Shown one piece after another: positions 1-22,946 of a DNA stretch of 64,000 nucleotides. The position numbers were made by a program, and so were the translations under genes. Source of the stretch: Haloarcula halophila (GTDB lineage Archaea > Halobacteriota > Halobacteria > Halobacteriales > Haloarculaceae); the NCBI RefSeq assembly GCF_029278565.1, contig NZ_CP119559.1, forward strand, positions 992,001-1,056,000. Reading direction: 5' to 3'. Position 1 is the first letter of the stretch; every line of letters begins with the position of its first letter. The notes beneath the pieces are model-generated. The model was not told the origin of the DNA. It saw nothing but the letters and a program-made list of their open reading frames with translations, and did not search any database.

Positions 1-3000
1 GGTCCCGCCCCCGGCGCTGTCGTCGGTGCGGGCCTTGTGGGCACTGCGCAGCACCGAGGCGGTAGTCGCCTGGTCCAGCGACGGCGCGAGCAGGTACTCG
101 GCGTCGGGACCAGACTCCTTCGCGAGGTTCTCGACGAAGCCGAAGGCGCCGACGTGGACCTCGTCGGACGCGTCGACGCCGGCGCCCCGGAGCTCCTCCA
201 GCCGACGAGTCGCGACCGAGGTCCACCACGCGTCGAGGCGGTGGCTTGCGAGGTCCATCGTCTCCCTCGTCAGCCGGCCCAGCCGCTCGGAGTCGACCGT
301 CGCGAGGTGCGACACCGAGTCGAGGAAGCCGGCGAGCGCCGGGTCGACCGGCGGGTAGCTGTTCGAGGCGGACAGGGCAGTCGTCTCGACGACGTCCCTG
401 AAGTCCGAGTTCCCGGTCAGCTTCGGGTGGTCGGCGTACGGGTCACCGACGTGTGCCGCCGATCCGGACGGGACCGTGTCGGTGAACCGGTCGAAAATCG
501 TCCCGTCACCGGGGTCGTAGGAGGTCGGCTCGGCGGGCACGTCGGGCTTGTCGTGGTAGTAGATGGCGCCGAGACGGACACGCGACGCCACGGCGGCCTG
601 GAACCCCGCGAACAGGATTGCCTGTCGCAGTAGCGACGCCGTCGGGTCGTAGTCCGCGGAGTCGGTCGTCGGGTCGAGCGCCGCGATGACGCTCCGGGGG
701 ATGGACGCCGAGGACGACGGCGACAGCGAGACGTCCTCGTCGGGGTCCGTGCCGAGGATGCGTAGCGCGACGTCCGGCCACGGCGACTCGAACACGTCGC
801 CGACGGTGTCGAGGAACGTCGTCACGTCCGCATCGGTGACGGGCAGGTCCTCGGCGGTCAGCGACGCGCCGAGGAACAGGAGCCGCGCCATGCGGGGGAG
901 AAAGCCCGACAGCCCGGCGTCGTCAAGGGCAGTGCTGGTGTCCTGTACCAGTTGCTGGCGGAGCTGCGGGGCGTCCGGGTCGTTCAAGGGGTTGTCCTCC
1001 CCGAGCAGCCACAGCCGCCGCCGGTAGGTCGCGGCCGTCGCCTCCATCGACAGCATGTCCAGCAGCCGGTCGTCGGACAGCGCGGCGTCGTCGGTCACCG
1101 CGGGAACGTCCCCGGCCCAGTCAAGCCAGTCGTCGCGCAGCCACCACAACCGGGTCAACAGCTCCGGACCGAACGTCTCGTCGGGAATGTGTTTCACCTC
1201 CGGCGGGGTGTAGCCGGCACTCGACCCGTCGGTGCCCGTCTCGGACTCCTCCCATTCGAGGGGCGAGCGGTCGTCACTCCCGACGTCGACGGGCGAAACC
1301 GGCAGCAGGCCATAGGGCTGGGCCCCCGCCCGGAGGGTCTTGTACGGCCCGCCAGCGCGCACGTACTCGACGAAGTGGTCCCGGTAGGTCTCCAGCCACC
1401 GGAGCAGCCGTGGCGGCCCCTCGACCGAGTCGCTCCGGCCGGTCCCGAGCATCGGCGGTGTGGCGTGTTCGTCCTCGTCCTCGTCGTGCTCGTCGTCGTT
1501 CTCGCCGCCCAGTGGCACCAGCAGGTTCCGGACGTAGTAGCCGATGGTGGCGGGCCAGAGCGCCCGGTTCATCGCCCGGGCGTCGGTGTCGCGGGTGTCG
1601 CCCGCGCCGCCGACGTGGTCGAACGTCGCCGGGTCGACGCCGAGCGCCTCCGCCAGCCGCCACCCGTCGGTGCCCGACCCGGCCAGTCCCGGCCCGGTCG
1701 CAGTGTCGAGGCTCGCGGCCGGGTCCCGGGTCTCCGACCGTGCCGAAGGCTCGTCGGCGTTGTTCGTCGGCGTCCCTGGATCGAGCAGTTCGAGGCCGTC
1801 GGTGTGGTTGGTGGCGGCGAGGAGGTCCGACAGCGCCTCCGTAGCCGCCTCGCCGTCCATCGACGTCTTGAGCCCGAGGACGACCAGCTTCGAGAAGCCG
1901 TCGCCGGTCGCCTCGAAGTCCTCGTCCGGCAGCGGGACCCGTAGCCCCATCCCGGCCCGCTCGGCCTCGGGGAACTCGGTCATCCACTCCATCTCCCGGG
2001 TGGCGTCGCCGTCCCGGGCCACCGTCTCGGGGCTCGGGCCGACGGCGAGTGGCTCCGTGACGGGCGGGCCCGTCACGCGCCGGACGTGCTCGGTTCCGGC
2101 CCGGCGCTCGAGATACCCGTTCCCGGAGTCGCTCCACCCTGTCTCGACCTCCTGGTCGTCGTCGGCCTCCCAGTAGGCGAGCGCGACGAACCGGTCGGGG
2201 AGCAGCTCAGCGCGTGGCGTCCTCGTCCACGATTCGGGCCGGAGGTCCACGTCGGGAAAGTCGATTGGGTCGACGGTCTTGAGGGGCGGGTCACCCTCGT
2301 CGAATCCCTCGCGGAGCGCCCGCTCGAGGTCCTCGTCGTCGCCGACCTTGTGAGGCGACAGCGCCTCGACGACGTAGGCAGCCCGCTCCTCGCCGAACCG
2401 CTCGACGCCCTGTGCCCAGACGCGCTCGCGGACCTCCTCGTACCGCTGGCCCGGGTCTTCGGAGAACTCGCCGGCTTCGAACTGCTCGACGATCGACTCC
2501 GCCGCCTCGACGGAGTGCTCGTCCGGGAGGGCACTCGGGGACTCGAAGCTCCCGTCCGCGTCCACGAGGGCCTCGGCGGGGACGATGCCGGCGACCCAGA
2601 GCTTGACCCAGTACTCCCGTCCCCACGCGTACTCGTCCTCGGTGAGCTGGTCCTCGTGGGTGTCGACGTGCAGCTGCTCGGGGTAGACCCGCACCAGTAG
2701 CTCGTCGCCGTCGAACCGCGTCTCGAGGCGGACGGGGAGCATCGCGATGGGGGCACTCCAGTCGAGCTCGACGAGGGCATCGGTCTCGCCGTCGTCGACC
2801 AGCGCGGCGTCGGCGTCCGCGAGGGCCGCGACGTGCCGACCGACCGACTGCTCTAGCTTCTGCTTCGTGCCGTCGACGTCGACGATGGCCGACAGCGGCT
2901 GGTCCTCGTCCTCCGGTCGTTCGAGCTCCCGGGTCCCGGCGACCGCGAGGTGGGCGAGGTCGACCAGCACGCCGACGACGATGAGCGCCCGGACGTGGGC

Positions 3001-3471
3001 CTGTCGATCGTCGTCGTCGAGCAGCTCGTCGTACGCCCGGACGACCCCATCGGCCTCCTCCTCGTCCGCGGTTCCGTCGACCGCCTCCTCGACGAACGAC
3101 AGGAGTTCGTCGGGCAGGCCGCCGTCCTCGAACTGGAGCTGATCGGGAGACGTCACGTCGACGTCCGGCAGTTCGAGCTGTCGGAGGCGCTCTCGCAGGA
3201 GCGCCTCGACATCGGCCCCGTCGTACGCCCGCCCGAGGTAGGCGAGGCTGCGGCGGCCCTGGGTGTGACGGCGCAGGAGCCGCGCGAGGTGGGATTCGAG
3301 CTGTTCGTCGGACCGCTCGCGCTCGGCCCCCCGGACCACACGCTCGACACGGGTCCGCAAGGTCGACTGCACCATCCGCAGGTCCACGGCAGTCCGTTCG
3401 CGACGGTCGAGTTCGTCGCGGAGCTTCTGTACTTCCGTTCGCGTCTGTGTGAGATCGGGTTCGCTGGACAT
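1..3471 (-). CDS. Giant uncharacterised protein, 3' end beyond window (at least 1157 aa)
   Basis: The frame opens with ATG at 3471 ([11 protein letters not shown]) and stays open through position 1 with no stop, so the gene continues past the left edge. The stop of the previous gene is at 3474-3476, two bases before this ATG, so the two are surely co-transcribed. The N-terminal ~80 residues are charged and probably helical. Around residues 240-290 come the phrases LPVRLETRF and [17 protein letters not shown], then [26 protein letters not shown], a GTPTNNAD motif and [15 protein letters not shown]. Near the edge there is [10 protein letters not shown] followed by [17 protein letters not shown]. 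From memory these phrases recur in very large uncharacterised bacterial proteins that sit near DUF6603 genes, but I cannot name a domain. There is no signal peptide or obvious membrane helix. The reading frame is certain; the function is unknown. Confidence 0.85.
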
Positions 3472-3473
3472 CG

Positions 3474-6400
3474 TCAGTTGCTCACCCCGTTACCGGACGT
3501 CGAGTCGTTACAGTGGACTCCCCCGGTACCGGGGAGCAGGTCGTCGGCGTGGATGGCGATTCGCACCGGGCGCTGCCACGTGATGTACGCCATGTGCGCG
3601 CTGTTCAGGCCCCAGGTGGCCTCGTCCTCCTTGTCGAGCGTTGGATCCTGGACCGCATCCGTCGCGCTGTCGGTGACCCACTGGTTGGTCTTCTTCGTCT
3701 CCCAGCCCTCCTGACCGGGCACGTCCTTGTAGACGGAGATGTTGTCCTTGCTGTCGAGGGCCGACTTGCTCTCCACGAGGTGGCCCCACGACATGCCGCT
3801 CCAGCCGTGTTCGGGGTTCTCGTTCGGCTTGTCGGTGTCCGCGACCCCGGAGCCGTCGTCCGGATCGTCGTACGAGACGCCGTTTGGCCGCTCGCCGATG
3901 TCGCCCTGGTTGACGTCCAGTCCGAACCGGACCTCGCCGGGGGCCTCCTCCATCACGAAGAACCAGCCGAGTTCGTCGACGGGGTCGCCGTTCTCGGTCC
4001 CGGTGACCCAGCTGTCGCCCGACTCGCCGAGCGACTTCGTGGGCTCTGCCCCCTTCGCCTCGTCCGGCGTGAGGTCGAACCCGAGGAAGTTCACGTCCGG
4101 GTCGAGTTCGCCGCGGAAGACGGGGAACCGGTGATAGTCGGTGTCGACCGCGTCGTCGGTCTCCTGCTGGGACGCCCACTCGGGTACCCGCTCGCTGCCG
4201 CTCCCGTTCGTCCGGTCGACGCACTTCGCCTTCGTGGCGTAGATGGTCGTCTGGGGGTACCGCCGCAGCAGTTCCCCGCGAATCACGACGACCACGTTTG
4301 TGGTCGGCTCGGAGCCCTGCCCGGGATGCTGTGAGCCACCCCCGCCGGCACCGGTCATGATGTTCGACCCCAGCTTGCTCGTGGGCTTCTCGTCCCACGT
4401 GTGTATCTCGGTGATGTCCTTGAGGTCGTCGGGGTCGTCGGGCTTGGGGATGCGCGCGCTGGGGTCCCAGAACTGGCGGAAGTACGACCCCCGGCGGTCG
4501 GTGGGGAAGCCCCGCCAGAGCAGTTCGTCGGCCATCTCGTGGTTGAGGCCGGTCATGAACGACTCGATGAACTGCGGGTTGGTCGAGAGAGCGCCGAACG
4601 TCTCCCGCGGAATCTCCTCGACTCCCGGCAGCAGGTAGTCCTCGGAGACCTCCTTCAGGTCCCGGAACATCGGGTCCGGGAACTCGGGGTAGGCCATGAC
4701 CCGGTCGAAGGGATCACGCCGGCCCGCCAAGGTGAGGCCACCGAGGCGGCTCTCGGCCCGCTCCCGCAGGGACGTGACCGGGTCGACGGCGTCGGCGACC
4801 GACCCGAGGTCCGGTCGCTGGGCGTCGCCGGTCCCGACGTCGGGATCGCAGACGAGGCCGGCACTGTAGTCGTCGTCCGACCCCGTGGCGACGTCGAGGT
4901 AGTCCCTGACGTCGGCGATGGCGACGAGCAGGTCGAGGACGTCCGTCTGGGCCTCCCGTGCGTCGTCCGGACCGTACCGGTCGTCCTCGCCGGGGTCGAT
5001 GAGGTCCCGCTCCGCGATGGCCGCGAGGCGCTCGTACAGCTGCTGAGCCAGCTGTTCCGTGAACTCGTCCGAGACACCCGGCAGGTTGTGGTCGGCTTCC
5101 GCCTCGGCTACCGCCACCATCAGGGGTTCCAGCGCGTCAAGGAAGATCCAGACGTCGTTCCACCTGTTCTCCGCCCTCGAAGCGAGTTCGGCGGCCTCGT
5201 CCCGGTCGAGTTCCCCGCCGAGTAGCTTGGCGAGCAGGTTGAGGATGTCCTCGCAGACGCCCTCCGTCTTCGAGAGCCGTTTCAGGACCTCGTCCACCTG
5301 CGGCCGGTCCTCGTCGTCCTGCTGGTCGTCGTCGTCGCGCTGGCTCTCCAGGCTGGCACAGAGTTCCGCGAGTTCGACGTCGTCCTTCTGGGCGGTGATT
5401 CCGCCGGGACCGTCGTCGGACGACACGACGGACGTCCGGCCGTTCACGACGGTTTCGAGGATGCGCCCCGCGTCGACGGTCCTGTCGAGGCGCCCGGCGA
5501 GCCGGCCGGACCCGCTGGTGAGCCGCCGGAACGGGGCCGAGGTCAGCGCGCGGGGGACCGACGAGTCCTCGAGGTAGGCGCCGACCGTCCGGCCGTCGGG
5601 GGCCAGCACGCGGTCGTGAGCCGGGCCGGTGAACTGCGCGGTCCACCCCGCCGGGGTGTTCTCGAGGCTGCGGACCTTGGTCTCCATCGCCGCCCGCGAG
5701 AGCTGGGCCGCCGCGAGCAGCCGGTTAGCCTCGCGAATCTCGCCGACCTGGTCCCAGGCGGAGGCCATCAGCTGCTCCTGGTTGTCCCGTACGATGGAGG
5801 TGCCCACGGCCGCCGCGAGCCGGTGGCCGGGGTGGAGGTTGAGCGTCGAGAGCCACTGCTCGTTGCTCGGCGGGGTGTCGGGCAGCGTCGTCGTCTCGGC
5901 GTGTCGACCGCCGTAGATCTGTGGGCCGACCACGTCGTAGTCCTCGTCCGTGAACTCCTGGAGGGCTGCGGGCGCGTTGAGGAGCTCCCGGAGCTTCGCC
6001 CGCGTCTCTTCGGTGGCGTAGCTGCCGGCGGAGCTGTCCTCCTGACGGAGCGCCCCGCCGAGCCTGACCGTCCGGTCGTCGTCGGGCAGGCCCCAGAGCC
6101 CCAGCGAGTCGGGGCCGGGGTCGGTGGCGTCGACCTTCTCGAACCCGATGTCGTACTCCTCGCCGTCGTTCAGGTTCCGGGGCTCCAGCTTGCGGGCGAG
6201 GGACTCGAAGTCGCCCGTCTGCCCCGTCGTGAACGTCCAATGGTGGTACACCGGCAGCGTGACGGTCTCGTCGCCACTGCCGCCGTTGACGCTCGTCTTC
6301 GTGGGATCCCACGAGAGCGCCATCTTCCCGTCGTCCCGTTCCGGGACCTCCTTGCCGAGGCCCGCCATCCGACCGGCCTCGAAGACGGGGACGACGGCCG

Positions 6401-7127
6401 CGACGTACTTCGTGCTCCCCTGCAGGTTCCGGGGCGAGACGAGCCGCGAGCGCGTGAGCGTCGACTCCGAGCCGAACGCCTCCTCCAGTGTCCGACCGTC
6501 GCTCTCCTCGGACTCCGCCCTGGCCTTCGCGTCCGGGCTGCCGACCGTCTGGGCGTGAGCCCACGCCCACGCCTCGTCGAGGGGCGGGAGCTCCGCCACC
6601 GGCGCCTCGATGGACGGCAGGGGCTTCTGGCCGGCGGGTTCGATGCGGGTCTCCTCGGTCCGCTCGACGACGACCAGACAGAGCCAGGGCAGGCCACGAC
6701 CCTTCGGGTCCGAACTGCTGCCGCCGCCGTTCTGGGTGGTCTGGGTGTCGTCGGCCACCGGGCTGAACACCCACGGGAGATCCGGGGCGTCGAACTCCAC
6801 CGTCGCGAGGTAGTTCGGCGGGTAGTTCGTGGTGTCCTCCTCGGGCTCGCGGCGCACGACCTGGTTCTGGTCGATGCCGTCGACGTGCTCGGGGCCGTAC
6901 ATGTCGATGGAGACGTTTCGCTCCTCGGCCGGCGTCCCCGGGGCGTCGGGGGTCTCCACGTCGAAGTTCACCGTCAGCGACCCGCCAGCCGTGATCGCCG
7001 GCTTGCCCTGTGCGTCGTCGGCCGAGTAGTTCTGGGTGGGCGGGTAGCCACGCCGGACCACCGGGAAGAACCGGTACTTTGTGTCCGAGTCCGTCGAGGC
7101 GTCCTGGGGGTCGAAGTCCTCGGGCAT
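3474..7127 (-). CDS. Large uncharacterised protein (1217 aa), second giant of the locus
   Basis: Start [11 protein letters not shown] at 7127 is chosen because its ATG overlaps the stop of the upstream gene (TGATG, 7125-7129) and because the frame further upstream reads as arginine-rich out-of-frame sequence. The N-terminal part has beta-like segments ending in [12 protein letters not shown] and [13 protein letters not shown], then [44 protein letters not shown] and [13 protein letters not shown]. The C-terminal third holds [20 protein letters not shown] followed by [20 protein letters not shown] remember near-identical phrases in long hypothetical proteins of bacteria, so this is probably a conserved family shared across domains, but no function is known to me. 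It has no signal peptide and no predicted membrane segments. It lies between a DUF6603-type gene and a second giant gene, which implies a joint role. Confidence 0.85.
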
Positions 7128-10100
7128 CAGGACCCACCTCCCCCGGTGCCGCCGACTTCCTGGACGCCGACCACCTGCAGGTCGTCGCGGGCGACGTCGT
7201 TGGTGGTGGCGGCGTACTGGCGCATGGCGTCTCTCGCCTCGACCCGCGTCTGCCCCGACTCGGGGTTGCCGTCGAAGTCGACGCGGCTCAGATCGGACCG
7301 CTTGACGACGACGAACTGCTGGTCGTCGACGCCGACCTGCTTGGACGTGTCGTCGGTCCTGTAGGCCGCCTCGCCGCTGGTGCGGGTTGGAGCCGTCGCC
7401 ACCGCGCTCTGCTCGGCGAGTTCGTTGCTGACCGCGAGATCCAGCCGGGTGTCCCAGGAGTCGTCTATCGCGTCGATGTCGGTCCAGTAGTCCTCGTTCT
7501 CCTCGTCGACCACCGACGCCTCGTACTCGAGGGTCGCCCACGACAGCAGCGAGCCGTCGTCCGACCCGGCGTAGTGGACGATGCCGTTCTCGACGGTCCG
7601 GCCCGCCGGGAGCATCTCGAAGGCTTTCGACTCCAGCTTCTCCGAATCCGACATCTTCTCGAACTTCGCCGGCGCGAACTTCTCCCTGAGTTCCGTCTGG
7701 CTCGACAGGTTCTCCCCCGAGCCCGTGACATCGAGGTCCGAGAGGGCGAACCGCTGGTGCTTGGGCTTCGCGTTGCCGTACTTCTCGATGGGCACCCCGA
7801 GCGGGACGACCTGCTGTCGAACGCCCATCTTCCCGAGGGGGTGAGCGAGCAGGGGCCCGGAGCCCTGGGGACCGCCGCCGTCGTCGCTCCCGGCGTTCGG
7901 GTCGCGCAGGGTCACGAGGTGGCGACCGCCCTCGGGTTTCTGGACGCTCCAGTTCGCCGGCTTCTCCAGTTCGTCCGCGAGTTCGGTCAGGACGTCGGCA
8001 GTCGGGAGCTCCTCCGAGCCACCCGAGGAGCCGAACTTGGCGTCGACCGTTACCGTGACCGAGATGAACAGGATGTCGATGCTGAGTTTGCCCCGGACGC
8101 GGTAGGGCTGTGGCCCTTTGAGGGTCCCGTCGAGTTCGAGTCCCAGCCCCTTGCCCTTGATCGTCACCGAGATCTTCGCGTAGAAGTCGACGACGAACTT
8201 GAAGGGGTTGAACTTGAACAGCGCGTCGAAGCTCAGCTCCCCGTGGACCGTCGCCGGCCCGAACTCGCCGTGGAGCAGTGCGCCGGCGCCGACCTGGAAG
8301 GTGTTCGGCGTCACCGCGACGTAGCCGGTGTACTCCAGCCGGGGGTTGCCGCCGGGTGGCGACAGCGACGCCTTCACGCGGTCGAGTTTCGGGAACCCCT
8401 TCGGCGGCGAGTACCGCGGGTGGAACCCGCCGACCGAGAGCATGAACCGCGAGTCGTCGCCCCACGAGGCCCGCATGGCCATGTCGCCGGACAGCGTCCA
8501 CATCACCAGCCGGGAGTCGTAGAGGGAGGCGTCGATGGCCAGTTGCTTGTTCGGGATGTCGAGAACGCCCACGACGGCGAGGTTGATGTCGATGAGCGCG
8601 ACCTCCTCGTCGGGCAGGTCGAGCATGAACTTCCCGAGCAGTGCGATCTTCCACGACGGGACGGCGACGAGGACCCCGAGTTCAGCCTTCACGATGACCG
8701 GCGTGCCCCAGCCGAGGCGGATCATCGGGCCGAAGACGTGGCGGTCGGCCTTCGGCGGGAAGATGGTCCGCAGGTCCGTGATGATCTGGTCGGAGTTCTC
8801 GACGACGTTCTCCGGGAACAGTACCGAGTCGAGATTGCCCGACCGGACCGCCTTGCCGAGTGGCTTCTTCTTGAACCCCCGGTGGACGCCGGCCAGCCCG
8901 CCGATACCCGTCATCACGAAGCCGAAGCCGAGCTGGACGGGCGGTAAGTCCGCCGTCACGAGCAACAGCAGCGAGTAACCGTCGGTCCCGGGGACCTTCG
9001 TCTTCAGCAGGCCGATGACCTTCAGCCCCCAGTTGCTGAACTGGAGTTCGAGGCCGCCGGCGTAGCGGTGCTTCTCGGGCTCGAATAGCAGGAAGCCGCC
9101 GCCCGAGACCGGCCCGGCGTCGATCGAGAGGCCGATACCGTCCGGCGGGCGGAAGCCGAGTTCGACGTCGACTGGGCCGAGGTTGCCGTCCTGGCCCTCC
9201 GGGAAGGAGAGGTCGGCCTGGACGCCCATCCGCTTGACGTTGCCCGCAAGCGGGCCCAGCGTGATCGACGGCGAGGTGGCCGCCTCGACGGCGACGTCGC
9301 TGTCCTCGCTCGTCGGGTCGACCGCGAGGTACAGCTCCGAGATGCTCGCGAACCCGAGGTCCAACTGCATCGGGATAGTCGCCTCGATGGCCCCCCCACC
9401 CTCGAAGTACAGGCTGTCCTTCGTCGAGTACCCGACCGTCGCGCCGAAGTCGAACTCGACATCGTCCGTGAGAACCTTCTCGAGGAAGCCCCCGGACGGC
9501 GAGACGACGAACCGCCCGGAGGTCGGCAGCTCCACCTTGAAGATCACGTCCTCGCCCTTGTAGTCGACGACGGCGTTCGCCCCCGCCGACAGCATGTCGA
9601 GGCGCGTCCCGTCGGGCTTGCCCAGGAGGGTCGTCGAGCCGTCGCCCGAGCCGGTGTACTCCAGCCCGGCCTCACCGTGGAGCTTCGCGGGCGGGGAGCC
9701 CGAGTCGAGGTTCACCATGCGGGTGTTCAGCGAGCCGCCGCTCGTGGGCTGGACGCCGAACCCGCGGTTGCCGATCTCGCCCGAGCCGGAGACGTTGAAC
9801 GTGAAACTCCCGAGTGGTACTTCCGTGCCGGAGCCGACGCGACCGAACGGGACGATGGCCACCCCCGGGAGCGCGTCGGTCTTCGCCGGCAGCGGCACGA
9901 GCTTGAACCCCGCGACGATGCGGGTCCCGTTCTCCGAGTATGAGATGATGGGCACCCGCAGCTGCGGGTCGAGGTCCGCCTCACTCTCGACCGACAGGTT
10001 CGCGATGTCGTTCACGCCGGTGAGCTGTTCGACCTGCCCGGACGGCGGCCCCTCGATGGACGCCGGCACGCCGAGGTCCCAGAACGCCTCCTTGAGGTAG

Positions 10101-10687
10101 TACAGCACCACGAACGCGAGGAAGTCCTCCTGGTCCGAACCCCAGTTGAAGACCTCCTTGGGTACCTTCGCGGGGTTCTTCGCCGCCATGGGGAAGATAG
10201 AGAGATCGAGGTCGCCCGCGCCGGGTCCGTCGCTCTGCTCGATGACCCCGAGGAGCGACATGTAGCTGTGGACGCTCCGGTGGTAGTTCTGGAGGTAGGT
10301 GACCAGCAGGTGGTCCAGCAGTAGCTTGCCCAGCTTGTCGACCTCGACCTCGACGTTCTGGAACTGGATGTCGTCGAGGGTCCGCAGGCCCTCGAAGACG
10401 CTCGCGACGGCCTCGATGACCGCCGGGAGGTCGTCGACGGACGGCTCGTCGGCCAGCACTGTCTTCGCGAGGACTCCCGCCGGTTCGGCGATGGCCGAAT
10501 CGAGCGCGGAAGCCAGCTTGTCGGCCTCCTCGCCCGCGACGGCCTCGTCGAACCCCGCCTCGGAGAGGAAGTCGGCGACCCCTTCGGGCCCCTCCTCGGC
10601 CGCGTTCGCGATGGGTTCGACCGTCCGTCCGAGTTCCCGCGCGAGCAGTTCGGTGGTGTCCGGCTGCTCGCCGTCGGAGCCGCTCAT
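7127..10687 (-). CDS. DUF6603-type beta-rich giant protein (1186 aa)
   Basis: Start MSGSDGEQPDTTELLAREL. The first ~200 residues look helical. From ~230 to the end the sequence alternates short hydrophobic strands with glycine turns. The diagnostic block is at ~586-665: LGFGFVMTGIGGLAGVHRG, SGNLDSVLFPENV, DLRTIFPPKADRHVFGPM and IRLGWGTPVIVKAELGVL. I know these as hallmarks of DUF6603 proteins, found in bacteria and some haloarchaea and of unknown function. The extended repeated-strand pattern could form a long beta scaffold or groove, but that is inference. The tail ends in a glycine run (GGTGGGGS). There is no signal peptide. The gene is the first of a tightly spaced unit with the two downstream giants, to which it is linked by stop/start overlap. 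Confidence 0.85.
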   Translation of the reverse strand: MSGSDGEQPDTTELLARELGRTVEPIANAAEEGPEGVADFLSEAGFDEAVAGEEADKLASALDSAIAEPAGVLAKTVLADEPSVDDLPAVIEAVASVFEGLRTLDDIQFQNVEVEVDKLGKLLLDHLLVTYLQNYHRSVHSYMSLLGVIEQSDGPGAGDLDLSIFPMAAKNPAKVPKEVFNWGSDQEDFLAFVVLYYLKEAFWDLGVPASIEGPPSGQVEQLTGVNDIANLSVESEADLDPQLRVPIISYSENGTRIVAGFKLVPLPAKTDALPGVAIVPFGRVGSGTEVPLGSFTFNVSGSGEIGNRGFGVQPTSGGSLNTRMVNLDSGSPPAKLHGEAGLEYTGSGDGSTTLLGKPDGTRLDMLSAGANAVVDYKGEDVIFKVELPTSGRFVVSPSGGFLEKVLTDDVEFDFGATVGYSTKDSLYFEGGGAIEATIPMQLDLGFASISELYLAVDPTSEDSDVAVEAATSPSITLGPLAGNVKRMGVQADLSFPEGQDGNLGPVDVELGFRPPDGIGLSIDAGPVSGGGFLLFEPEKHRYAGGLELQFSNWGLKVIGLLKTKVPGTDGYSLLLLVTADLPPVQLGFGFVMTGIGGLAGVHRGFKKKPLGKAVRSGNLDSVLFPENVVENSDQIITDLRTIFPPKADRHVFGPMIRLGWGTPVIVKAELGVLVAVPSWKIALLGKFMLDLPDEEVALIDINLAVVGVLDIPNKQLAIDASLYDSRLVMWTLSGDMAMRASWGDDSRFMLSVGGFHPRYSPPKGFPKLDRVKASLSPPGGNPRLEYTGYVAVTPNTFQVGAGALLHGEFGPATVHGELSFDALFKFNPFKFVVDFYAKISVTIKGKGLGLELDGTLKGPQPYRVRGKLSIDILFISVTVTVDAKFGSSGGSEELPTADVLTELADELEKPANWSVQKPEGGRHLVTLRDPNAGSDDGGGPQGSGPLLAHPLGKMGVRQQVVPLGVPIEKYGNAKPKHQRFALSDLDVTGSGENLSSQTELREKFAPAKFEKMSDSEKLESKAFEMLPAGRTVENGIVHYAGSDDGSLLSWATLEYEASVVDEENEDYWTDIDAIDDSWDTRLDLAVSNELAEQSAVATAPTRTSGEAAYRTDDTSKQVGVDDQQFVVVKRSDLSRVDFDGNPESGQTRVEARDAMRQYAATTNDVARDDLQVVGVQEVGGTGGGGS

Positions 10688-10690
10688 GCT

Positions 10691-10713
10691 GGCCCCCGTC
10701 GACGTCGGGGGCC
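10691..10713 (-). promoter_or_regulatory. GC-rich hairpin in front of the DUF6603-type start codon
   Basis: The arms GGCCCCCG (10691-10698) and CGGGGGCC (10706-10713) pair perfectly around a 7-nt loop. In the minus-strand transcript this places a very stable stem 4-26 nt before the ATG at 10687, over the place where a ribosome binding site would lie. No separate Shine-Dalgarno sequence is seen. The hairpin may limit translation of the giant-protein unit or terminate early transcripts; there is no poly-U run to support the second. Confidence 0.5.
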
Positions 10714-10914
10714 GTCGAACCTCCGTCCGGGACCTCGCCGGTTCCGCTCAGTAGAATCGGTCACGGGTCCCTCCTCGCTGCCCCTCGGAGGGCCGGTGGT
10801 CGGATCGAGAATCGGCCGACTGCTCGGCACCGAAGCCGAAAACGTCCGTCCTCCCTGGCGACCACCACGCCCGTTCGACGTTATCGACTGGCATACCTGT
10901 TACTCAAAGAGAAT

Positions 10915-10923
10915 GAACTTAAT
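10915..10923 (-). promoter_or_regulatory. Candidate TATA element for the DUF6603-type unit
   Basis: The minus strand reads AATTAAGTT in an AT-rich patch of an otherwise GC-rich gap. The same core TTAAGTT lies upstream of the M15 gene. A start ~27 nt downstream would give a leader of roughly 200 nt that contains the hairpin at 10691-10713. Confidence 0.35.
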
Positions 10924-11094
10924 TCTTTCCAAGGTTGATCCCGGTCCGTTGAGCAACGGCGCGTCGTTGAGTTTAGTCCGGAAGACGGTCCGATTCATCG
11001 GAATATCGTCGGAACTGGGGGGTTGTGGCGGGCCCCGGGCCACCGCTTCCCCGTCCGAACGGTGAGTCCAAGGCAGGGAGGGGCACCGCCGTCG

Positions 11095-13419
11095 TCACAC
11101 GGAGGTACCGGTGTACACGAGGTTACTGAAGGAGGTCCAGCCGATGAGCTGATCGCCCGGCGTGGCGACCTTGGCTATCTTGGACCCGTCGGGACCGTTC
11201 CGCGCCTCCTTGTACTGGACGTATATGCCCCAGCTCAGCTCCCAGTACCCGTCTACGTCGTCGTCGTCACTCTCCGCGTAATGAACGTCCACGCTGTCCT
11301 CCCAGAAGGACCGCAGCGGGTTGCTCTCGTCAGTCGCGGGCTGCAGGTCCTCATCCGGCGTGTCCGGCTTCGGCTCCCGGAGCCACGCGGCGCGGCTGTC
11401 CACGCCGTAGATGCCACCCTCGACCTCGGTCCCGGCTTCAGCCGGGGCGGTTGGACAGTTCTCGAAGTACTCGGCTGGCTGCTCGTCGTCCGGACTCAGT
11501 CCCCGGAAGTCGTTGTGGTGTTCGTTCGCGTCCGCTTTCGCGTCCTCCGGTGCGTCGCTGTACGCCCACGCGTCCCCGGCGTCTCCGATCCACGGGTACG
11601 GCTTGATGTCGACGTGGAAGTTGTTCCACTGGCCGCCCACACCGGTCCGGGGGTCGCAGGGGTTGACGCCTTCGGGGCTGATGTCGTTGTAGTTCTCGTC
11701 GACGAGGGCGTGAAGCGCCATCTTCGCCAGCTCGACCTGGTCGAACCCCGGATTCCGGTCCGGGGAGAGGTTGGCCTCGTTCGTCCACCCGAGCACGTTG
11801 CCGCTCCGGTCCTGGACCTTGACCACCGAGTCCCCGTCCGGGTTCGTGGCGCTGTCCCCTGTCTCCTCGACCTCGGTCCCCTTCGTTATCTTCCAGATGT
11901 CGGTATCAGTGTGTTGGGTGACCGATCCGGGAGGGCTGTCCCCGTACCAGTTACTGTACGCCGAAACGTTCACGATGTCCTGGGTGAACGTGTCGTACGC
12001 GGGGTCCGCGTCGGGGTCCCGGAGGTACGCCTTGTCGTTATCGATCACCTGGTACGTCGTCGACGCGAAGTCGATGTCCGCCCCGCGCCCGGAGCAGTGC
12101 TCGCTCCGCGTCAGGTCCTTGTAGACCGGGTCCGACTGGTCCGAGAGGGTCAGTTTCCACTCGTAGTCCTCTGTGTCGCCGTCGCCGTCCGTGTCGACGC
12201 TGTGTGGCCCGGGCTCCATGCTGTCGATGGTGCTCTCGTCGTCCGGCCAGTCGTACGTGTCGCCCTCCCGGTTGTACTCCCAGTGCCGGTACCCCGATCC
12301 GATCCTGAGTGAGTACTCTTCGTCGGCGGCGGCTTGTTCGTCGTTGACGTGCTCGCGTAGCTGCTCCAGGTAGCGGACGAACGCGGGGTCGATGCGGGCC
12401 CGTGTGAACTCGGTGTTGCCGCTCTGTGCGTACTCGCCGACGGTGAAGTGCTCGGACAGTTGCTTCTCGCGGTGGTCCCCACTCGTATCCAGCAGGGGGT
12501 TGCCGCTGTAATTGGGGTCCCAGTGCTGTTCGCTCAGTGGCCACTGGTTGTCGTCCCGCGCGTCGGCCCCCCCTACCACGGGCAGCGTCGCCCCGCTCGG
12601 GAACGTGACCTCCTCGGCCGTCCCGCCACCGCCGCCCGCACTCCCGCCACCCCACTCGGGGATACGCAAGCTCCCCTTCTGCCAGAAGGAGTGCTCGGGT
12701 GGCTCCCATGACGCGCCGCCCGTCGTCGATACGAACCCAAGCTGGCCCAGCAGCCACTCGTAGTGCTCGTAGCTCGTCTGCTCGACGGCGATGTTCCCGC
12801 TCGTGCCGTTGATCAGGAGGTCAACGACGAATGCTCGCCAGAGCACATCGTTCTTTTTCCACACCAGCGCCGCGTCGCTCGTCGGGTGGAGGGTGACCTC
12901 GCCGGAGAGCAGCCCCCGGCCCCCGCCCGCGTCGACGCCGATATTACCGAACGCCTTCTCCCACTGCTTGGGCGTCAGCGGCTCCTCGGTGGCGAAGTGC
13001 GCGGCGAAGAAGCACCCGGCCGTCTTCCCCGAGGTCGGCTCGTCGCCGAGTGGTTCCGGGCCGTTCTCGCCTTGCCTGGCGAAGATGTACATGTGGGGGC
13101 CGTGGGCCGGCACGCTTTCGACCTTCGTGATCCAGATCATCGAGAGGCCGATGGCGCCGCTGAGGTCCATGAACGGCGGCAGGAGGTGATTCGCCGTCGT
13201 GCTGACCTCCAGCTCGAAGCCGAAGGCGCTGATGCCAGCGTCCGCCAGCTTCCCGAACGCGTCGGCGTCGACCACGTTCTCGACTTGCTTCCGTATCGCG
13301 TTCGCGTTCTGGTATCCGGCGGGGCCGACGGCAGACTCGCCCTCGAGCCGTCCGACGGGGAACTCCCGGAAGACCCTCCCCCCTTCGGTCGGCGTCTCGG
13401 GTTTCGTGTCCTGAGCCAT
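11095..13419 (-). CDS. M15-type D,D-carboxypeptidase/endolysin-like protein with SH3b-like modules
   Basis: 774 aa, start MAQDTKPETP, preceded by a GGAGTGA ribosome-binding-like stretch and a TATA element ~40 nt upstream. Residues 1-255 form a domain shared with the neighbouring 1034-aa protein, ending in WLLGQLGFV and a PEH-FWQ-G motif. A Gly-rich linker (256-267) follows. The catalytic part starts near HFTVGEYAQSG (~324), with LRIGSGYRHWEYN (~371) and SEHCSGRGADID (439-450). This fits the M15 metal motif H-x2-G-x3-D, with H441 and D448 as zinc ligands and H602 in FHVDI as the third. Between D448 and H602 sits an SH3b-like insert (~464-552, ending LGWTNEANL), and a second copy closes the protein (~672-770). 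There is no signal peptide. M15 enzymes cleave peptidoglycan cross-peptides, which this archaeon should not possess, so the target is probably bacterial. Confidence 0.8.
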   Translation of the reverse strand: MAQDTKPETPTEGGRVFREFPVGRLEGESAVGPAGYQNANAIRKQVENVVDADAFGKLADAGISAFGFELEVSTTANHLLPPFMDLSGAIGLSMIWITKVESVPAHGPHMYIFARQGENGPEPLGDEPTSGKTAGCFFAAHFATEEPLTPKQWEKAFGNIGVDAGGGRGLLSGEVTLHPTSDAALVWKKNDVLWRAFVVDLLINGTSGNIAVEQTSYEHYEWLLGQLGFVSTTGGASWEPPEHSFWQKGSLRIPEWGGGSAGGGGGTAEEVTFPSGATLPVVGGADARDDNQWPLSEQHWDPNYSGNPLLDTSGDHREKQLSEHFTVGEYAQSGNTEFTRARIDPAFVRYLEQLREHVNDEQAAADEEYSLRIGSGYRHWEYNREGDTYDWPDDESTIDSMEPGPHSVDTDGDGDTEDYEWKLTLSDQSDPVYKDLTRSEHCSGRGADIDFASTTYQVIDNDKAYLRDPDADPAYDTFTQDIVNVSAYSNWYGDSPPGSVTQHTDTDIWKITKGTEVEETGDSATNPDGDSVVKVQDRSGNVLGWTNEANLSPDRNPGFDQVELAKMALHALVDENYNDISPEGVNPCDPRTGVGGQWNNFHVDIKPYPWIGDAGDAWAYSDAPEDAKADANEHHNDFRGLSPDDEQPAEYFENCPTAPAEAGTEVEGGIYGVDSRAAWLREPKPDTPDEDLQPATDESNPLRSFWEDSVDVHYAESDDDDVDGYWELSWGIYVQYKEARNGPDGSKIAKVATPGDQLIGWTSFSNLVYTGTSV

Positions 13420-13456
13420 GAGTGGAGGTAATCACTCCTGGTGTTGGAGCGTTGAC

Positions 13457-13464
13457 AACTTAAG
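13457..13464 (-). promoter_or_regulatory. TATA element of the M15 gene
   Basis: The minus strand reads CTTAAGTT about 40 nt before the ATG at 13419. Transcription starting ~27 nt downstream would leave a leader of ~15 nt that carries the GGAGTGA stretch. The position and sequence fit a haloarchaeal BRE/TATA promoter. Confidence 0.5.
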
Positions 13465-13549
13465 CGTTGGGCAGACGACGAGTCGGCCCTCCCCCCGCAG
13501 TCGAACACGAGGGTCGAGAGGTTCGTCGTCCAGGGGCGCTTCGCCCGGG

Positions 13550-16500
13550 TCAGTAGAGGTTCCCCATGTTGGTCCAGCCGATGCGGGTTCCGTCGCTGGC
13601 GTGCTCTATCTCGATGATAGCGACGCGGTTCCCACCAGACGTGTAGCTGTCACGATCGGTGACCGTGACCGGCGTTCCCTGGTCTACCTCCCACGTGTTG
13701 GGGCCTTGGTTGACGTACGCGAGGGTGTTCCAGTTGTTGTGCAGCGGGTTCGCCCCCGTGACGGGCGCGTACCCGTTGTTGGGGTCCCGAAGCCACGCCT
13801 GACTGCTCTGTATCACGTGAGTCGGCGTGCTCGACTGGGGCGCGTCGAAGTCGAAGGAGTCGCGGTCCTCCGAGAGGAGGTCGTCGGCGGCGCCGCTCCG
13901 ATCCGGCGTGACGCCGTCGGCGAGATCGGTCGCCGAGAACAGCCGATAGCGGCTCTCGTGGTTCGGGTCGGTCTGCCACCCGATCCAGTGGGGCCAGTAC
14001 CTGACGACGTCGATCCGGCCGATACCGTCGTTCGTCATCTCGGTCGCGATGTCGTCGACCATGTCCGCCTCGTGCTGGTCGCCGCTGTTGCCACTCCAGT
14101 CGTTGGTCGAGAGGTCCTGGTTCCACCCGTTCCACGCGTTGTCGACGGCGTCCCCGAGCGTGTTGCCGCCGGTGTCGATGACGTGGGCTGGGCTCTTGAT
14201 GTGCCACCGCAGGACGAGCGCGATGCCCCGCTCGGAGGTGACCACGTCGCCGATAGTTGCCGGATCGCCGCCGTCGTTCGGGAGGTGGGAGACCCCCGGT
14301 GGCCACAGCGTGTTCCGGATGTCGCGGATGCGGAAACGGGTCATGTCCCACATCCCCTCTCGGTACCCGTCGACGGTTCGACCGGCCATCACGAACCGGG
14401 AAAACCAGTGCCAGCCCCGGAAGTAGTCGCCGTCCCGGCGGTGGACCGGCTCCCGGCTCACGTTGCCCCCGCTCCCGCGGTAGGCCAACGTCAGCTTGTC
14501 GGTGTAGTTCCGGAGGCCGTGGTTGAACAGGTCGCTCCCGTTGTTCCCCCACGCGGTGTCGGTCTCGACGCCGAAGTGGCCGAACGCCTCGTCGAAGGCG
14601 TTCTGGTTGCTCGATTCGAGGTAGCTGATGTACGCCGGTAGCTCGCCCTCCCGCAGCTCGTCGTCGGCGTGGCCCGAGGCCGGCCCGCCCTGCCCGTAGA
14701 GCTCCTGGGTCGGTCGCTTGATCTCGTTCCGCCATCGGTTGTAGCCCCAACTACCGAACTCCTGACTGGGGTTCCGGCCGGCCGCCCTGAGTGCCAGGGT
14801 CCAGTGACACGGACCGATGGACACGATGGCCGTGTCCCAGGAGTTGACGTCGTCGAGGTACCCTTCACACTCCAGTTCGGAGGAGGCGCGGACGATCTTG
14901 AACGTCGAGAGCGTGTCGGTCCCGGAGCCGCCAGTTTCGAGTGGCGTCAGGTTGACGTTGGTGCCGACGATGTTCTCCGGCAGCACCTCCCCGGTCCGGG
15001 GCCACGTCTGGTCGTAGTCGGGGTCGGCGTAAGGCCCGCCGTACGTCTCCCTGTAACCGCTGGAGGTGTTCGCCATCGTGTCCCGCTCGTAGTGCCCGAC
15101 CACGTACGCCGCCGGGCGGGTCAGGTTCCCGGTGTCGATGGCCGGGACGTCGACCGCGGTCGCCGATGCGCCGTAGTACTCCGAGAAGTCGGTCACGAAC
15201 ACCGAGTCGTCGGTGGGGTTCGACGCGTGCTCCAGGTCGAGCCGCTGCCAGAAGTTCTGGAAGACGACCCTGCTGTTGCCGCTGGAGTCGGTGAAGGCGT
15301 TTTGGTAGTCCGTCTCGTTGCCGTTGCTCACCGCGTTGTGGGTCTCGGTCCGCACGGTGTCCTCGTCCGTTATCTTCTCCATCACCACCGGACACCGCCA
15401 GTCGTTGTCGAGCCAGTACTGGATGCGTTTGGCCGTCTCCTCGTTCAGGACCCCCGAAACGTCCCCGTCGTAGGTGGCGTCGTTCGCGACCGCTTCGAGG
15501 TTCTCGACGTAGCGGTCGTTGCCGCTGCCGGTGTGGTGGGCGACCGTCTCGCGCTGTGCGTGTATCTGGAACTCCCGAACGGCCCACTCGGTCACGGCAC
15601 GGAAGTCCCCGCTCGCGTCCCCGGTCGTGAGGGTCGACTGGCTGCCGGGCTCGAAGCTGTAGTTGCTCCGCTGGCCGGACGCGACCATCCCACGGAACCA
15701 GAACCCGAGTTCCCAGAGGTCCGACTGGAGCTGTTTCACGTGGTCCTCGCGACCGGCGTTGCCGACGGTGACCTCGTAGTAGAGCTCCGAGCCCCCGTAC
15801 TCGCCCAGGCCGGCGACGTCGCTGAGGGGGTCCCCACCGCCCCCGCCGCCCCCACTGCCACCCTCGCCACCCCACTCGGGGACGAGCGTGTCGCCGTTCT
15901 GCCAGAAGGGGTGCTCGGGCGGATTCCACGAGCTACCGGATATCCCGTCGACGAACCCGAGCTGGCCGAGCAGCCACTCGTCGTGCCGGTAGCGCGACGC
16001 CGTGATGGTCGGGGCCAGCGCGTCGCTCCCGAGGGAGAGGTCGGCCGCGAACGTGTGCCAGACGTCGCGGTCGTCCCACACGAACACCGAGCCGTCGGCA
16101 CCGTACATGGTGGTCTCGCCGGAGAGGATGCCACTTCCGCCGCCAGCGTCGACGCCGACCGTGCCCATGGCGCGGTCGAACTGCGAGCGGTCGAGCGAGA
16201 CCGAGCCGTCGCCGAAGTGCGCCACGAAGAACGACCCCTCGACGGTCTGGGCGGGGTTCGGCGCGTCGGCGATGGGCTCGGCCCCGCCGGTACCGGCCCC
16301 GTCCTCGCTGTAGTTCGCGAAGAGCGTGACGTGTGGCCCCCGGTCTGCCCCGTCGTCGGCCCCGACCAGCCAGACCAGGGAGATGCCGATAGCGCCGTTC
16401 AGTGATCCGAACGGGGCGCTGTTACCGGCCTGAGCGTCCACCTCTACCTCGAACCCGAAGCCGTCTATCTCCGCGTTCGCAAGCTGCGTGACGGCTGCGT

Positions 16501-16654
16501 CCGTGAGCGTGCTTTCGACCTGAGCGCGGATGGCCTCCGCGACCTGGTACCCGCTGGGCGTGTCGCTGGCCCGGTTCTGTAGCTCGCTGATCGAGAGGTG
16601 TTTGTACACCCGACCGCCCTCGGTCGGGTTCTCGGGTTGGACTCCCTGGGGCAT
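13550..16654 (-). CDS. Peptidoglycan-binding-like, putative cell-wall-targeting protein (1034 aa)
   Basis: Start MPQGVQPENPTEGG. Residues 1-262 are homologous to the N-terminal domain of the adjacent M15 protein: same order of motifs, including GxxGILSGE-type and GxxGLLSGE-type segments, WLLGQLGFV and the PEH-FWQ-G ending. A polyglycine linker (~263-274) follows. Residues ~300-410 resemble a PG_binding_1 fold: HVKQLQSDLWELGFW, then GDFRAVTEWAVREFQ and a final ETAKRIQYWL. A large middle domain (~590-900) contains YLDDVNSWDTAIVSIGPCHW and ELPAYISYLESSNQNAF, which may be catalytic (glycosidase- or lysozyme-like) but which I cannot assign. The C-terminal ~100 residues are SH3b-like (QAWLRDPNNG to RIGWTNMGNLY). 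There is no signal peptide. It has its own promoter and is the first gene of the locus. Confidence 0.8.
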   Translation of the reverse strand: MPQGVQPENPTEGGRVYKHLSISELQNRASDTPSGYQVAEAIRAQVESTLTDAAVTQLANAEIDGFGFEVEVDAQAGNSAPFGSLNGAIGISLVWLVGADDGADRGPHVTLFANYSEDGAGTGGAEPIADAPNPAQTVEGSFFVAHFGDGSVSLDRSQFDRAMGTVGVDAGGGSGILSGETTMYGADGSVFVWDDRDVWHTFAADLSLGSDALAPTITASRYRHDEWLLGQLGFVDGISGSSWNPPEHPFWQNGDTLVPEWGGEGGSGGGGGGGDPLSDVAGLGEYGGSELYYEVTVGNAGREDHVKQLQSDLWELGFWFRGMVASGQRSNYSFEPGSQSTLTTGDASGDFRAVTEWAVREFQIHAQRETVAHHTGSGNDRYVENLEAVANDATYDGDVSGVLNEETAKRIQYWLDNDWRCPVVMEKITDEDTVRTETHNAVSNGNETDYQNAFTDSSGNSRVVFQNFWQRLDLEHASNPTDDSVFVTDFSEYYGASATAVDVPAIDTGNLTRPAAYVVGHYERDTMANTSSGYRETYGGPYADPDYDQTWPRTGEVLPENIVGTNVNLTPLETGGSGTDTLSTFKIVRASSELECEGYLDDVNSWDTAIVSIGPCHWTLALRAAGRNPSQEFGSWGYNRWRNEIKRPTQELYGQGGPASGHADDELREGELPAYISYLESSNQNAFDEAFGHFGVETDTAWGNNGSDLFNHGLRNYTDKLTLAYRGSGGNVSREPVHRRDGDYFRGWHWFSRFVMAGRTVDGYREGMWDMTRFRIRDIRNTLWPPGVSHLPNDGGDPATIGDVVTSERGIALVLRWHIKSPAHVIDTGGNTLGDAVDNAWNGWNQDLSTNDWSGNSGDQHEADMVDDIATEMTNDGIGRIDVVRYWPHWIGWQTDPNHESRYRLFSATDLADGVTPDRSGAADDLLSEDRDSFDFDAPQSSTPTHVIQSSQAWLRDPNNGYAPVTGANPLHNNWNTLAYVNQGPNTWEVDQGTPVTVTDRDSYTSGGNRVAIIEIEHASDGTRIGWTNMGNLY

Positions 16655-18038: not shown

Positions 18039-18782
18039 TTATCCCCCCAGGTAGAGCCGGCCGACCTCCTCGTTGTTGAGGAGTTCGGTCCCGGAGCCGG
18101 TGAACTTGATCTCGCCGCTTGCCAGGACGAACCCGCGGTCGGCGACGGAGAGCCCCTTCTCGGCGTTCTGTTCGACCAGGAGGATCGTCGTCCCGAGGTC
18201 GTTGAGCTGTTCGATCCGCTCGAAGACGTCGTCGATGAACCGCGGTTCGAGTCCGATCGAGGGCTCGTCGAGCATCATCACGTCGGGATCGACCATCAGC
18301 GCACGGGCCAGTTCGAGCAGGCGCCGCTGGCCGCCCGAGAGCGTCCCGGCCTTCTGGCCCCTGATGTCACCGAGTATCGGGAACTCGTCGTACAGTTCCT
18401 CGGCGCGCTCGGCGGCGCGGTCGTCGTCGTCGAAGACGTACCCGCCCATCAGCATGTTCTCGTGGACGCTCATCCGGGGGAAGACGCTGGCGTCCTGGAG
18501 GACGTAGCTCATCCCGCCGGCGAGGTTCTCCTGGGGCGAGCGGCCGGTGATCTCCTCCCCACGGAACTGGACGGTCCCCGACTGGACGTCGGCGAAGCCG
18601 TAGATGCTCTTCATCAGTGTCGACTTCCCCGACCCGTTCGGGCCGATGAGGCAGCCGATCTCACCCTCCCGAACGCTGATGTTCACGTCGTGGAGGACGG
18701 TCGTGTTGCCGTAGCCCGACGTCACGTCGGTCATCGACAACAACGCGTCGTCAGTCGTCGTGGATGTGTCTGTCGTTGCCAT
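18039..18782 (-). CDS. livF: Branched-chain amino acid-type ABC transporter ATPase LivF
   Basis: 247 aa from ATG at 18782 (MATTDTST), which follows the LivG stop by one base. An in-frame start further upstream would lie inside livG and adds only arginine-rich sequence, so it is rejected. Walker A is GPNGSGKST, the signature is LSGGQRRLLELARAL and Walker B is VMMLDEPSIGL, with a conserved switch His after LLVEQN. It energises the LivHM permease on the cytoplasmic side together with LivG. Length and motifs are normal for the family. The substrate of the system cannot be read from the ATPase. Confidence 0.93.
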   Translation of the reverse strand: MATTDTSTTTDDALLSMTDVTSGYGNTTVLHDVNISVREGEIGCLIGPNGSGKSTLMKSIYGFADVQSGTVQFRGEEITGRSPQENLAGGMSYVLQDASVFPRMSVHENMLMGGYVFDDDDRAAERAEELYDEFPILGDIRGQKAGTLSGGQRRLLELARALMVDPDVMMLDEPSIGLEPRFIDDVFERIEQLNDLGTTILLVEQNAEKGLSVADRGFVLASGEIKFTGSGTELLNNEEVGRLYLGG

Positions 18783-18783
18783 C

Positions 18784-19569
18784 TCATTCCCTCCCAAGGT
18801 ACGCGTCGAGGACGCGCTGGTCGTTCTGGATCGCTTCTGGCGTTCCCTCGGCGATGCGCTCACCGTGGGCCAGTACGTAGATCCGGTCAGCGATCTCCAT
18901 GACGAAGTCCATATTGTGTTCGATCAGGAAGATCGTCGCCTCCTCGTCGGTGTTTGCCGTACGGATGTACTCGATGAGCTTTCCGATCATCGAGGGGTTG
19001 ATCCCGCCGGCCGGTTCGTCCATCAGCAGAATCTCGGGTTCAGCCATGAGTGCCATGCTGAATTCGATGAGCTTCTGCTGGCCGAAGCTCAGTCGGCCGG
19101 CCCGCACGTCCGCCAGTCCACCGAGGTCGACGTACTCCAGCAGTTCGTTGGCACGCCCCAGCAACGAGTCGTCGGGCCGTCGCAGCAGGTTCCCCACGTC
19201 GGCACCCCCTTCCTGTGCGGCGATCAGGAGGTTCTTCCTGACGGTCATATCCCCGAAGATGCGCGTCTCCTGAAACATCCGTCCCAACCCGGCCCGAGCG
19301 ATCTTGTACTCGGGCCAGTCCGTGACGTCCTCACCCTGGAGGTAGACGTTGCCTTCGTCGGCATCGAGAGAGCCCGTGATGCAGTTGAACAGCGTCGACT
19401 TCCCGGCACCGTTGGGACCGATGAGGCCGACGATCTCGCCCTGGTTGACCTCGATATCGACGCTGTCGACGGCAGTCAGCCCGCCGAACCGCTTGGTGAC
19501 ACCGTCGGTCCGCAGGACTGCACGATCTCCCTGGGTGTCGGTCGCCGGCGTGTCAGTGGCTCGACTCAC
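18784..19569 (-). CDS. livG: Branched-chain amino acid-type ABC transporter ATPase LivG
   Basis: 261 aa. Walker A is GPNGAGKST, the signature LSFGQQKLIEFSMAL, Walker B ILLMDEPAGG and the switch region IFLIEHNMDFV. The C-terminal extension after the switch (RIAEGTPEAIQNDQRVLDAY) is the LivG-type tail that distinguishes it from LivF. The start overlaps the LivM stop by four bases. It is the second ATPase of a Liv/Urt-type importer. Confidence 0.93.
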   Translation of the reverse strand: MSRATDTPATDTQGDRAVLRTDGVTKRFGGLTAVDSVDIEVNQGEIVGLIGPNGAGKSTLFNCITGSLDADEGNVYLQGEDVTDWPEYKIARAGLGRMFQETRIFGDMTVRKNLLIAAQEGGADVGNLLRRPDDSLLGRANELLEYVDLGGLADVRAGRLSFGQQKLIEFSMALMAEPEILLMDEPAGGINPSMIGKLIEYIRTANTDEEATIFLIEHNMDFVMEIADRIYVLAHGERIAEGTPEAIQNDQRVLDAYLGRE

Positions 19570-21529: not shown

Positions 21530-21533
21530 CGTC

Positions 21534-22877: not shown

Positions 22878-22890
22878 AGCTTCGGTACGT

Positions 22891-22911
22891 GCGTGTATCA
22901 GTGATACACGC
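22891..22911 (-). promoter_or_regulatory. 21-bp perfect palindrome, likely operator of the ABC operon
   Basis: The arms GCGTGTATCA and TGATACACGC are perfect 10-bp inverted repeats around a single G. It lies 14-34 nt upstream of the binding-protein ATG and just downstream of two TATA candidates (22913-22919 and 22937-22946). A dimeric HTH regulator bound here would cover the transcription start, so repression is the simplest model. Confidence 0.65.
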
Positions 22912-22936
22912 CCTATACGGGACGTTGTGATCCACA

Positions 22937-22946
22937 TTAATAAACA
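22937..22946 (-). promoter_or_regulatory. TATA element of the ABC operon
   Basis: The minus strand reads TGTTTATTAA, a strong haloarchaeal TATA-like sequence. A start ~27 nt downstream falls at about 22912, placing the palindrome in the first ~20 transcribed bases. Confidence 0.5.

Follow-up and report, generated by a model that had tools for sequence, protein, structure and literature searches.

Effector-specific adaptors of type VI secretion systems (T6SS), such as the DUF4123 proteins, each couple one effector to a common apparatus. Polymorphic toxin systems combine a conserved chassis with toxic or enzymatic modules that can be exchanged (PMC3482391), and haloarchaea possess a T6SS-like contractile injection system, a multi-gene antagonism machine with toxic cargo (PMC11566945). 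The archaeal peptidoglycan hydrolases Woldo and Danwoldo are modular, secreted and equipped with Tat signals, and signal peptides are present in only 32% of archaeal peptidoglycan hydrolases (PMC12352652). Here we describe a locus of Haloarcula halophila that invites comparison with all of these, located in a window of 64,000 nucleotides (C1:992001-1056000 of a complete 4.04 Mb genome). Its six genes, named A to F in transcription order (gA-gF), comprise a core of C, D, E and F, in which C is a DUF6603 protein, and gA and gB in an exchangeable enzyme slot. On balance, we favor the view that this is a modular enzyme-carrying system, in which an enzyme-specific adaptor, the N terminus of C, probably links interchangeable enzymes to one shared giant apparatus.

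The locus differs from each described system. Woldo and Danwoldo are haloarchaeal, contain PG_binding_1 and are aimed at bacterial walls, a target that gA and gB may have in common with them, but gA and gB have no signal and are encoded in a giant-protein operon, whereas Woldo and Danwoldo carry Tat signals (PMC12352652). A term search of the main text of that paper gave no hits for operons or for domains of unknown function. The T6SS-like system (PMC11566945) is likewise a multi-gene haloarchaeal machine, but there is no sheath gene in the present genome and no phage-tail homologue in the core; baseplate, tube and spike homologues gave no Pfam or PHROG match above noise in the locus, and of the two folds searched (C and D), that of D returned nothing. 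In contrast to polymorphic toxins, the enzyme is here a separate upstream gene paired with a cognate putative adaptor, and no chassis domain in common with known polymorphic toxins was found. The T6SS adaptors work by a similar logic, but there is no Pfam homology to them, and adaptor and structural core would here reside in one giant protein. As to Tc/Rhs proteins, the large proteins have no Pfam RHS match, and the fold-search list for C is full of beta-barrels and ApoB100. PADLOC defense models did not match C, D, E or F, and within the literature collection searched no paper names DUF6603 or PF20248 and no description of the system was found. Neither sequence nor fold (compared for C and D) points to any known system, and the locus looks categorically new.

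The minus strand of the window holds five open reading frames (ORFs) in succession, of 1034, 774, 1186 and 1217 amino acids (aa) and a fifth that is open-ended at the window edge, at the positions where an earlier note on this DNA, made from the letters alone, had placed them (Table 1). The five-gene set proposed there was nevertheless incomplete. gE continues in frame past the edge, ends at C1:986235 and has a full length of 3078 aa, and a sixth gene of ~730 aa lies outside the window, so that the last three genes singled out in the note correspond to C, D and a portion of E in a core of four genes. The genes are closely packed (gC and gD overlap by 1 nucleotide, and the gD-gE and gE-gF gaps are 2 and 1 nucleotides), and C, D, E and F stand in order on one strand.

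The arrangement C-D-E-F recurs as a syntenic core, all on one strand, in haloarchaea, one other archaeon and no fewer than eight bacterial phyla. With profiles made from the window, we recovered it, in unchanged order and strand, from plasmids of haloarchaea, Streptomyces, Nocardia, Rhizobium (D and E split), Paraburkholderia and Gemmatirosa, and profile searches identified it in further archaeal genomes. When 84,980 species genomes were scanned, a single window protein as query returned nothing and an alignment query returned 292 DUF6603 relatives, from which 75 loci were kept. D follows C in 73 of these 75, and E was seen in 65 and F in 38, numbers limited by contig or flank ends. The bacterial hosts include members of the Actinomycetota, Bacteroidota, Nitrospirota, Pseudomonadota, Acidobacteriota, Planctomycetota, Cyanobacteriota and Myxococcota and one Chloroflexi metagenome-assembled genome. 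Of 393 Halobacteriota genomes, five contain C (above cut-off), and D and the F core are present in exactly these five and no others; the chance of one such two-set coincidence is ~1e-11 if phylogeny is ignored. A search of 31 congeneric genomes found DUF6603 in none of them, which makes horizontal acquisition of the locus probable. The earlier note had taken the set to be common to haloarchaea and bacteria, and the fixed-order co-occurrence across both domains bears this out. The check it named, co-occurrence with varying hydrolase cargo, turned up varied enzymes in the adjacent slot, and neither a lack of co-occurrence nor housekeeping homologues, the outcomes it listed as refuting, was seen.

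The gene immediately upstream of C belongs to unrelated enzyme families in different loci and typically ends no more than a few tens of bases before the C domain, with gap lengths that in most loci leave no room for a gene, such as an immunity gene, between slot and C. Among 53 slot proteins scanned, we counted PhoD phosphatase (12), subtilase S8 (5), M64 peptidase (5), phospholipase D (PLD, 3), NAL1 C-terminal (3), PG_binding (3) and tyrosinase (2) proteins, cargo classes being assigned by profiles seeded in this analysis. Catalytic motifs are present in the PLD (two HKD), S8 (GTSMAxP), M64 (HExxH) and NAL1 (GDSGG-type) enzymes. Judged from sequence, the gene just upstream of C is thus an exchangeable enzyme with catalytic motifs intact where tested. 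The enzyme is normally a separate gene; one fusion was seen, in Polyangium sp. y55x31, where an alpha/beta hydrolase (lipase) and DUF6603 form a single 2841-aa ORF (L042:3812-12334). The S8 and NAL1 proteases have a common 110-aa C-terminal domain (hhalign probability 98.5%).

Evidence that C is matched to its enzyme comes from Nitrospira, in which the genes are arranged in tandem as enzyme1-C1-enzyme2-C2-D-x-E-F. C copies cluster by the accompanying enzyme and not by genome, with 3 changes, the fewest possible for 4 cargo types. In pairs of C from one genome but with different cargo (n=7), the N-terminal regions are 19-25% identical (22%) and the cores 82-89% (86%), whereas pairs from different genomes with the same cargo (n=37) have mean identities of 68% in the N-terminal region and 85% in the core. 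Between the sister loci L064 and L052, D is similar but the enzyme-C cassettes differ. Across phyla, the nearest neighbor carried the same cargo in 44 of 59 cases when the N-terminal region was compared and in 20 of 59 when the core was compared, and 1000 shuffles of the labels never exceeded 37%; such statistics do not fully remove phylogeny, for which the Nitrospira paralogues are the clean control. All 21 PhoD cases in the N-terminal test agreed, and all NAL1 mismatches pointed to S8, merging of the two classes giving 49 of 59. At four loci outside this test (Salinigranum, S. longwoodensis, Gemmatirosa and Paraburkholderia), the N terminus of C predicts the enzyme found. The N terminus of the window's C groups with other haloarchaeal ones, and the two slot proteins of haloarchaeal C relatives that were scanned (Natrinema and Halalkalicoccus) had no Pfam match. 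We conclude that the N-terminal region of C (the predicted helical domain and the start of the beta region) is enzyme-type specific and the core common to all, and that enzyme and cognate C are exchanged as a two-gene cassette while D-E-F stay. As a separate observation, Leptolyngbya sp. PCC 7375 has two loci (L076 and L102) with PhoD and unknown-family cargo, respectively, and correspondingly different C N-termini.

The assignment of the third gene to DUF6603 held: gC matches PF20248 over model positions 2-501 of 502 (E 6.5e-125, 418 bits, above the curated cut-off), an entry for which Pfam gives no function. An AlphaFold2 model of the window's C (predicted local distance difference test (pLDDT) 77, predicted template-modeling score (pTM) 0.59) has a helical N-terminal domain (aa 1-205) followed by ~40 antiparallel strands (aa 242-885), with pLDDT of about 90-97 across most of aa 477-885. 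The two faces of the strands differ strongly in hydrophobicity (3.05, compared with 1.22 for shuffled strands). The closest structural neighbors of the model are beta-barrels and the ApoB100 belt. An outer-membrane barrel or ApoB-like fold was rejected, with a best Foldseek E of 1.1e-3 and a VIA Z of 17 but a root-mean-square deviation of 10 Å over 291 residues; an outer membrane is also lacking in hosts such as haloarchaea and Streptomyces. Since the deviation from these neighbors is ~10 Å, we claim no fold identity and read the beta region only as a predicted amphipathic antiparallel meander. A viral origin was rejected as well because no relative of C was found among 2.9 million viral contigs.

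D, E and F have no match to any Pfam or PHROG family or PDB sequence. D was modeled with a pLDDT of 84 and a pTM of 0.75, and its fold search was without a match (best Foldseek PDB E 0.09, VIA Z <5, viral library E 0.18); structure prediction, which had been proposed as a check, gave a meander without fold identity for C and no fold match for D. PDB sequence matches of C, D and E were discarded as coiled-coil noise, as was a match of E to phage Gp18 (E 0.012), in which the aligned part is a low-complexity helix. No homology was found within the C, D, E, F set in the pairs compared, which excluded C-E and C-F, and no nucleotide-binding sensor domain was found in the core. Surface-type domains (BGTF surface and lamin tail) are present in haloarchaeal E and F, and matches of the F profile in ~120 archaeal genomes proved to be the lamin-tail domain (model positions ~560-668) and not F. 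In Rhizobium lusitanum (L016:20160-28048), D and E are each split into two adjoining genes, marking domain borders. A Nitrospira-specific gene of ~280-330 aa lies between D and E in nine loci (e.g. L064:14779-15609, L070:14953-15786 and L106:4682-5515). A module inserted in the window's gE (profile positions ~1373-1790) is also present in secreted-looking upstream haloarchaeal genes (L006:12314-16237 in G053, L024 in G260 and L026 in G344).

The initial reading of gA and gB as peptidoglycan-directed is partly borne out. gA has a sub-threshold match to PG_binding_1 (E 0.0014 in Pfam; 4.5e-4 for the sub-region alone), and its catalytic-like aa 345-890 module is homologous to actinobacterial proteins with a clear PG_binding_1 (E 1e-6 to 3e-9). 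Because the slot protein in several actinobacteria is PhoD fused to PG_binding_1 and a module equivalent to gA aa 345-890, gA is by its domain make-up a rearranged member of the slot repertoire, the PhoD part being replaced by a 280-aa N-terminal domain also present in gB. gB has an M15-like motif pattern recognized by eye (LSEHFTVGEY..., SEHCSGRGADIDF and NNFHVDIK); it has no profile match and no match in Pfam or PDB, and no homologues were found on plasmids. The absence of signal peptides noted at the outset was borne out by a simple hydrophobicity window test, which found no hydrophobic N-terminal stretch in gA, gB or bona fide C, D, E and F and no signal-like N terminus in 75 of 77 slot proteins; the one row flagged for E comes from a separate ORF that lies upstream in G344.

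In the mechanism that we propose, each enzyme would dock by a tag onto the N-terminal domain of its own C, the tag of the S8 and NAL1 proteases probably being their common C-terminal domain, and the C core would plug into an apparatus made of D, E and F. The loaded assembly may then act outside the cell against other microbes, and because Sec/Tat-like signals are absent, we propose that it is released by lysis or an unknown route. Haloarchaea lack peptidoglycan, so wall-directed cargo would point outward, and the putative wall-degrading gA and gB of this haloarchaeon would act on bacteria. A bolder version, which we regard as possible but somewhat short of even odds, is that the locus represents a class of effector-loading machine without phage-tail ancestry in archaea and many bacterial phyla, in which C is a per-enzyme adaptor-scaffold, D-E-F delivers, and archaea attack bacterial walls. 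Several points weigh against the proposal. Physical contact, secretion, activity, particle formation and a bacterial target are inferred at most, and the putative peptidoglycan role of gA and gB rests on the PG-binding domain in homologues and on motifs. A tag universal to all slot enzymes was not found; some loci (Rhizobium and Streptomyces sp. 01724) have no adjoining recognizable enzyme; G412 and S. europaeiscabiei have PhoD-type C N-termini and no recognizable enzyme was found there; and outside Nitrospira cargo class is partly confounded with phylogeny.

One other explanation for the broadly degradative enzyme set (PhoD, proteases, PLD, lipase, tyrosinase and wall enzymes) is that the locus encodes no weapon but an extracellular enzyme-display or exoenzyme complex of cellulosome-like logic, which draws on dead biomass for phosphate, lipid, protein and wall material. 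The surface-type domains of haloarchaeal E and F are consistent with display. However, the lack of Sec/Tat-like signals in the core and nearly all slot proteins is unusual for exoenzymes, and the distribution is rare and patchy in Halobacteriota, so that we consider a nutritional role unlikely.

Missing export signals would be expected if the effectors were instead unleashed within the producer, with D-E-F as sensor and scaffold of an intracellular conflict or programmed-death (anti-phage) system. PLD, trypsin-like and subtilase effector types are known in defense systems too, PADLOC subtilase and DrmC-like PLD models match cargo, and patchy distribution and plasmid carriage also fit. We nonetheless judge this somewhat less probable again than the nutritional role, because peptidoglycan-directed cargo has no intracellular substrate in a haloarchaeon, the core proteins escape the PADLOC models, and the core has no recognizable nucleotide-binding sensor domain. 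That the locus is an effector cassette of a contractile injection system (extracellular (eCIS) or T6SS-like) encoded elsewhere in the genome is very improbable. In its favor, signal peptides are absent, signal-less archaeal peptidoglycan hydrolases are somewhat enriched alongside a phage sheath domain (P = 0.059; PMC12352652) and 2 of 6 host genomes (G053 and G200) have a sheath gene, but the idea is already weakened by sheath-free hosts, with no sheath match (PF04984) in this 100% complete genome (G000) or in G260, G344 and G412, and no phage-tail homology was found for D by sequence or fold or for C, E and F by sequence.

If enzymes are indeed loaded through the N terminus of C onto a D-E-F apparatus, the locus would represent an undescribed but widespread means by which enzymes are loaded and deployed, and cargo tag and adaptor N terminus would form a natural plug-and-play interface. 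It would also bear on how archaea compete with bacteria, a question still open. The adaptor-cargo model lends itself to direct testing; the Nitrospira loci are natural swaps, in which loading can be tested with two proteins.

Table 1. Positions of the genes and sub-regions of the locus (window coordinates, or contig coordinates where marked C1).
Feature	Position	Strand	Basis or remark
gA, slot enzyme 1, 1034 aa	13550..16654	-	ORF list, Pfam search, homologue comparison
gA putative wall-hydrolase module, aa 538-897, conserved E..E/HWT motif block	13964..15043	-	homologue comparison, motif scan
gB, slot enzyme 2, 774 aa, N-terminal domain common with gA, M15-peptidase-like motifs by eye	11095..13419	-	
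gC, DUF6603 protein, 1186 aa, putative adaptor and beta core	7127..10687	-	Pfam search, AlphaFold2 model
gC predicted N-terminal helical domain, aa 1-205, part of cargo-specific region	10073..10687	-	model and identity comparison
gC predicted amphipathic antiparallel beta-meander, aa 242-885, mostly conserved core	8033..9964	-	model, hydrophobicity analysis
gD, core protein, 1217 aa, no known family	3474..7127	-	ORF list, profile searches, structure model
gE, core giant protein, first 1157 of 3078 aa in window	1..3471	-	rest beyond window to C1:986235
gF, ~730 aa, outside window, directly after gE	C1:984041-986233		sixth operon gene

Three further loci contain atypical relatives of C. In Halobellus (L018:17995-21614), C lies in two ORFs, reflecting a frameshift or a decayed copy. 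A plasmid of Paenibacillus polymyxa (L033:16744-26860) carries a divergent DUF6603 gene with three large genes after it, close to genes for phage-baseplate-V and DUF4280 proteins, and D, E and F were not recognized there by profile. At L029 (G032:C1:2680000-2699999), a 2318-aa ORF that has gE-like repeats and matches DUF6603 below threshold stands beside a PLD gene, with the core absent. In the window itself, the upstream flank of the locus (18039-22937) holds what, from their translations, are ordinary branched-chain amino-acid ABC transporter genes.

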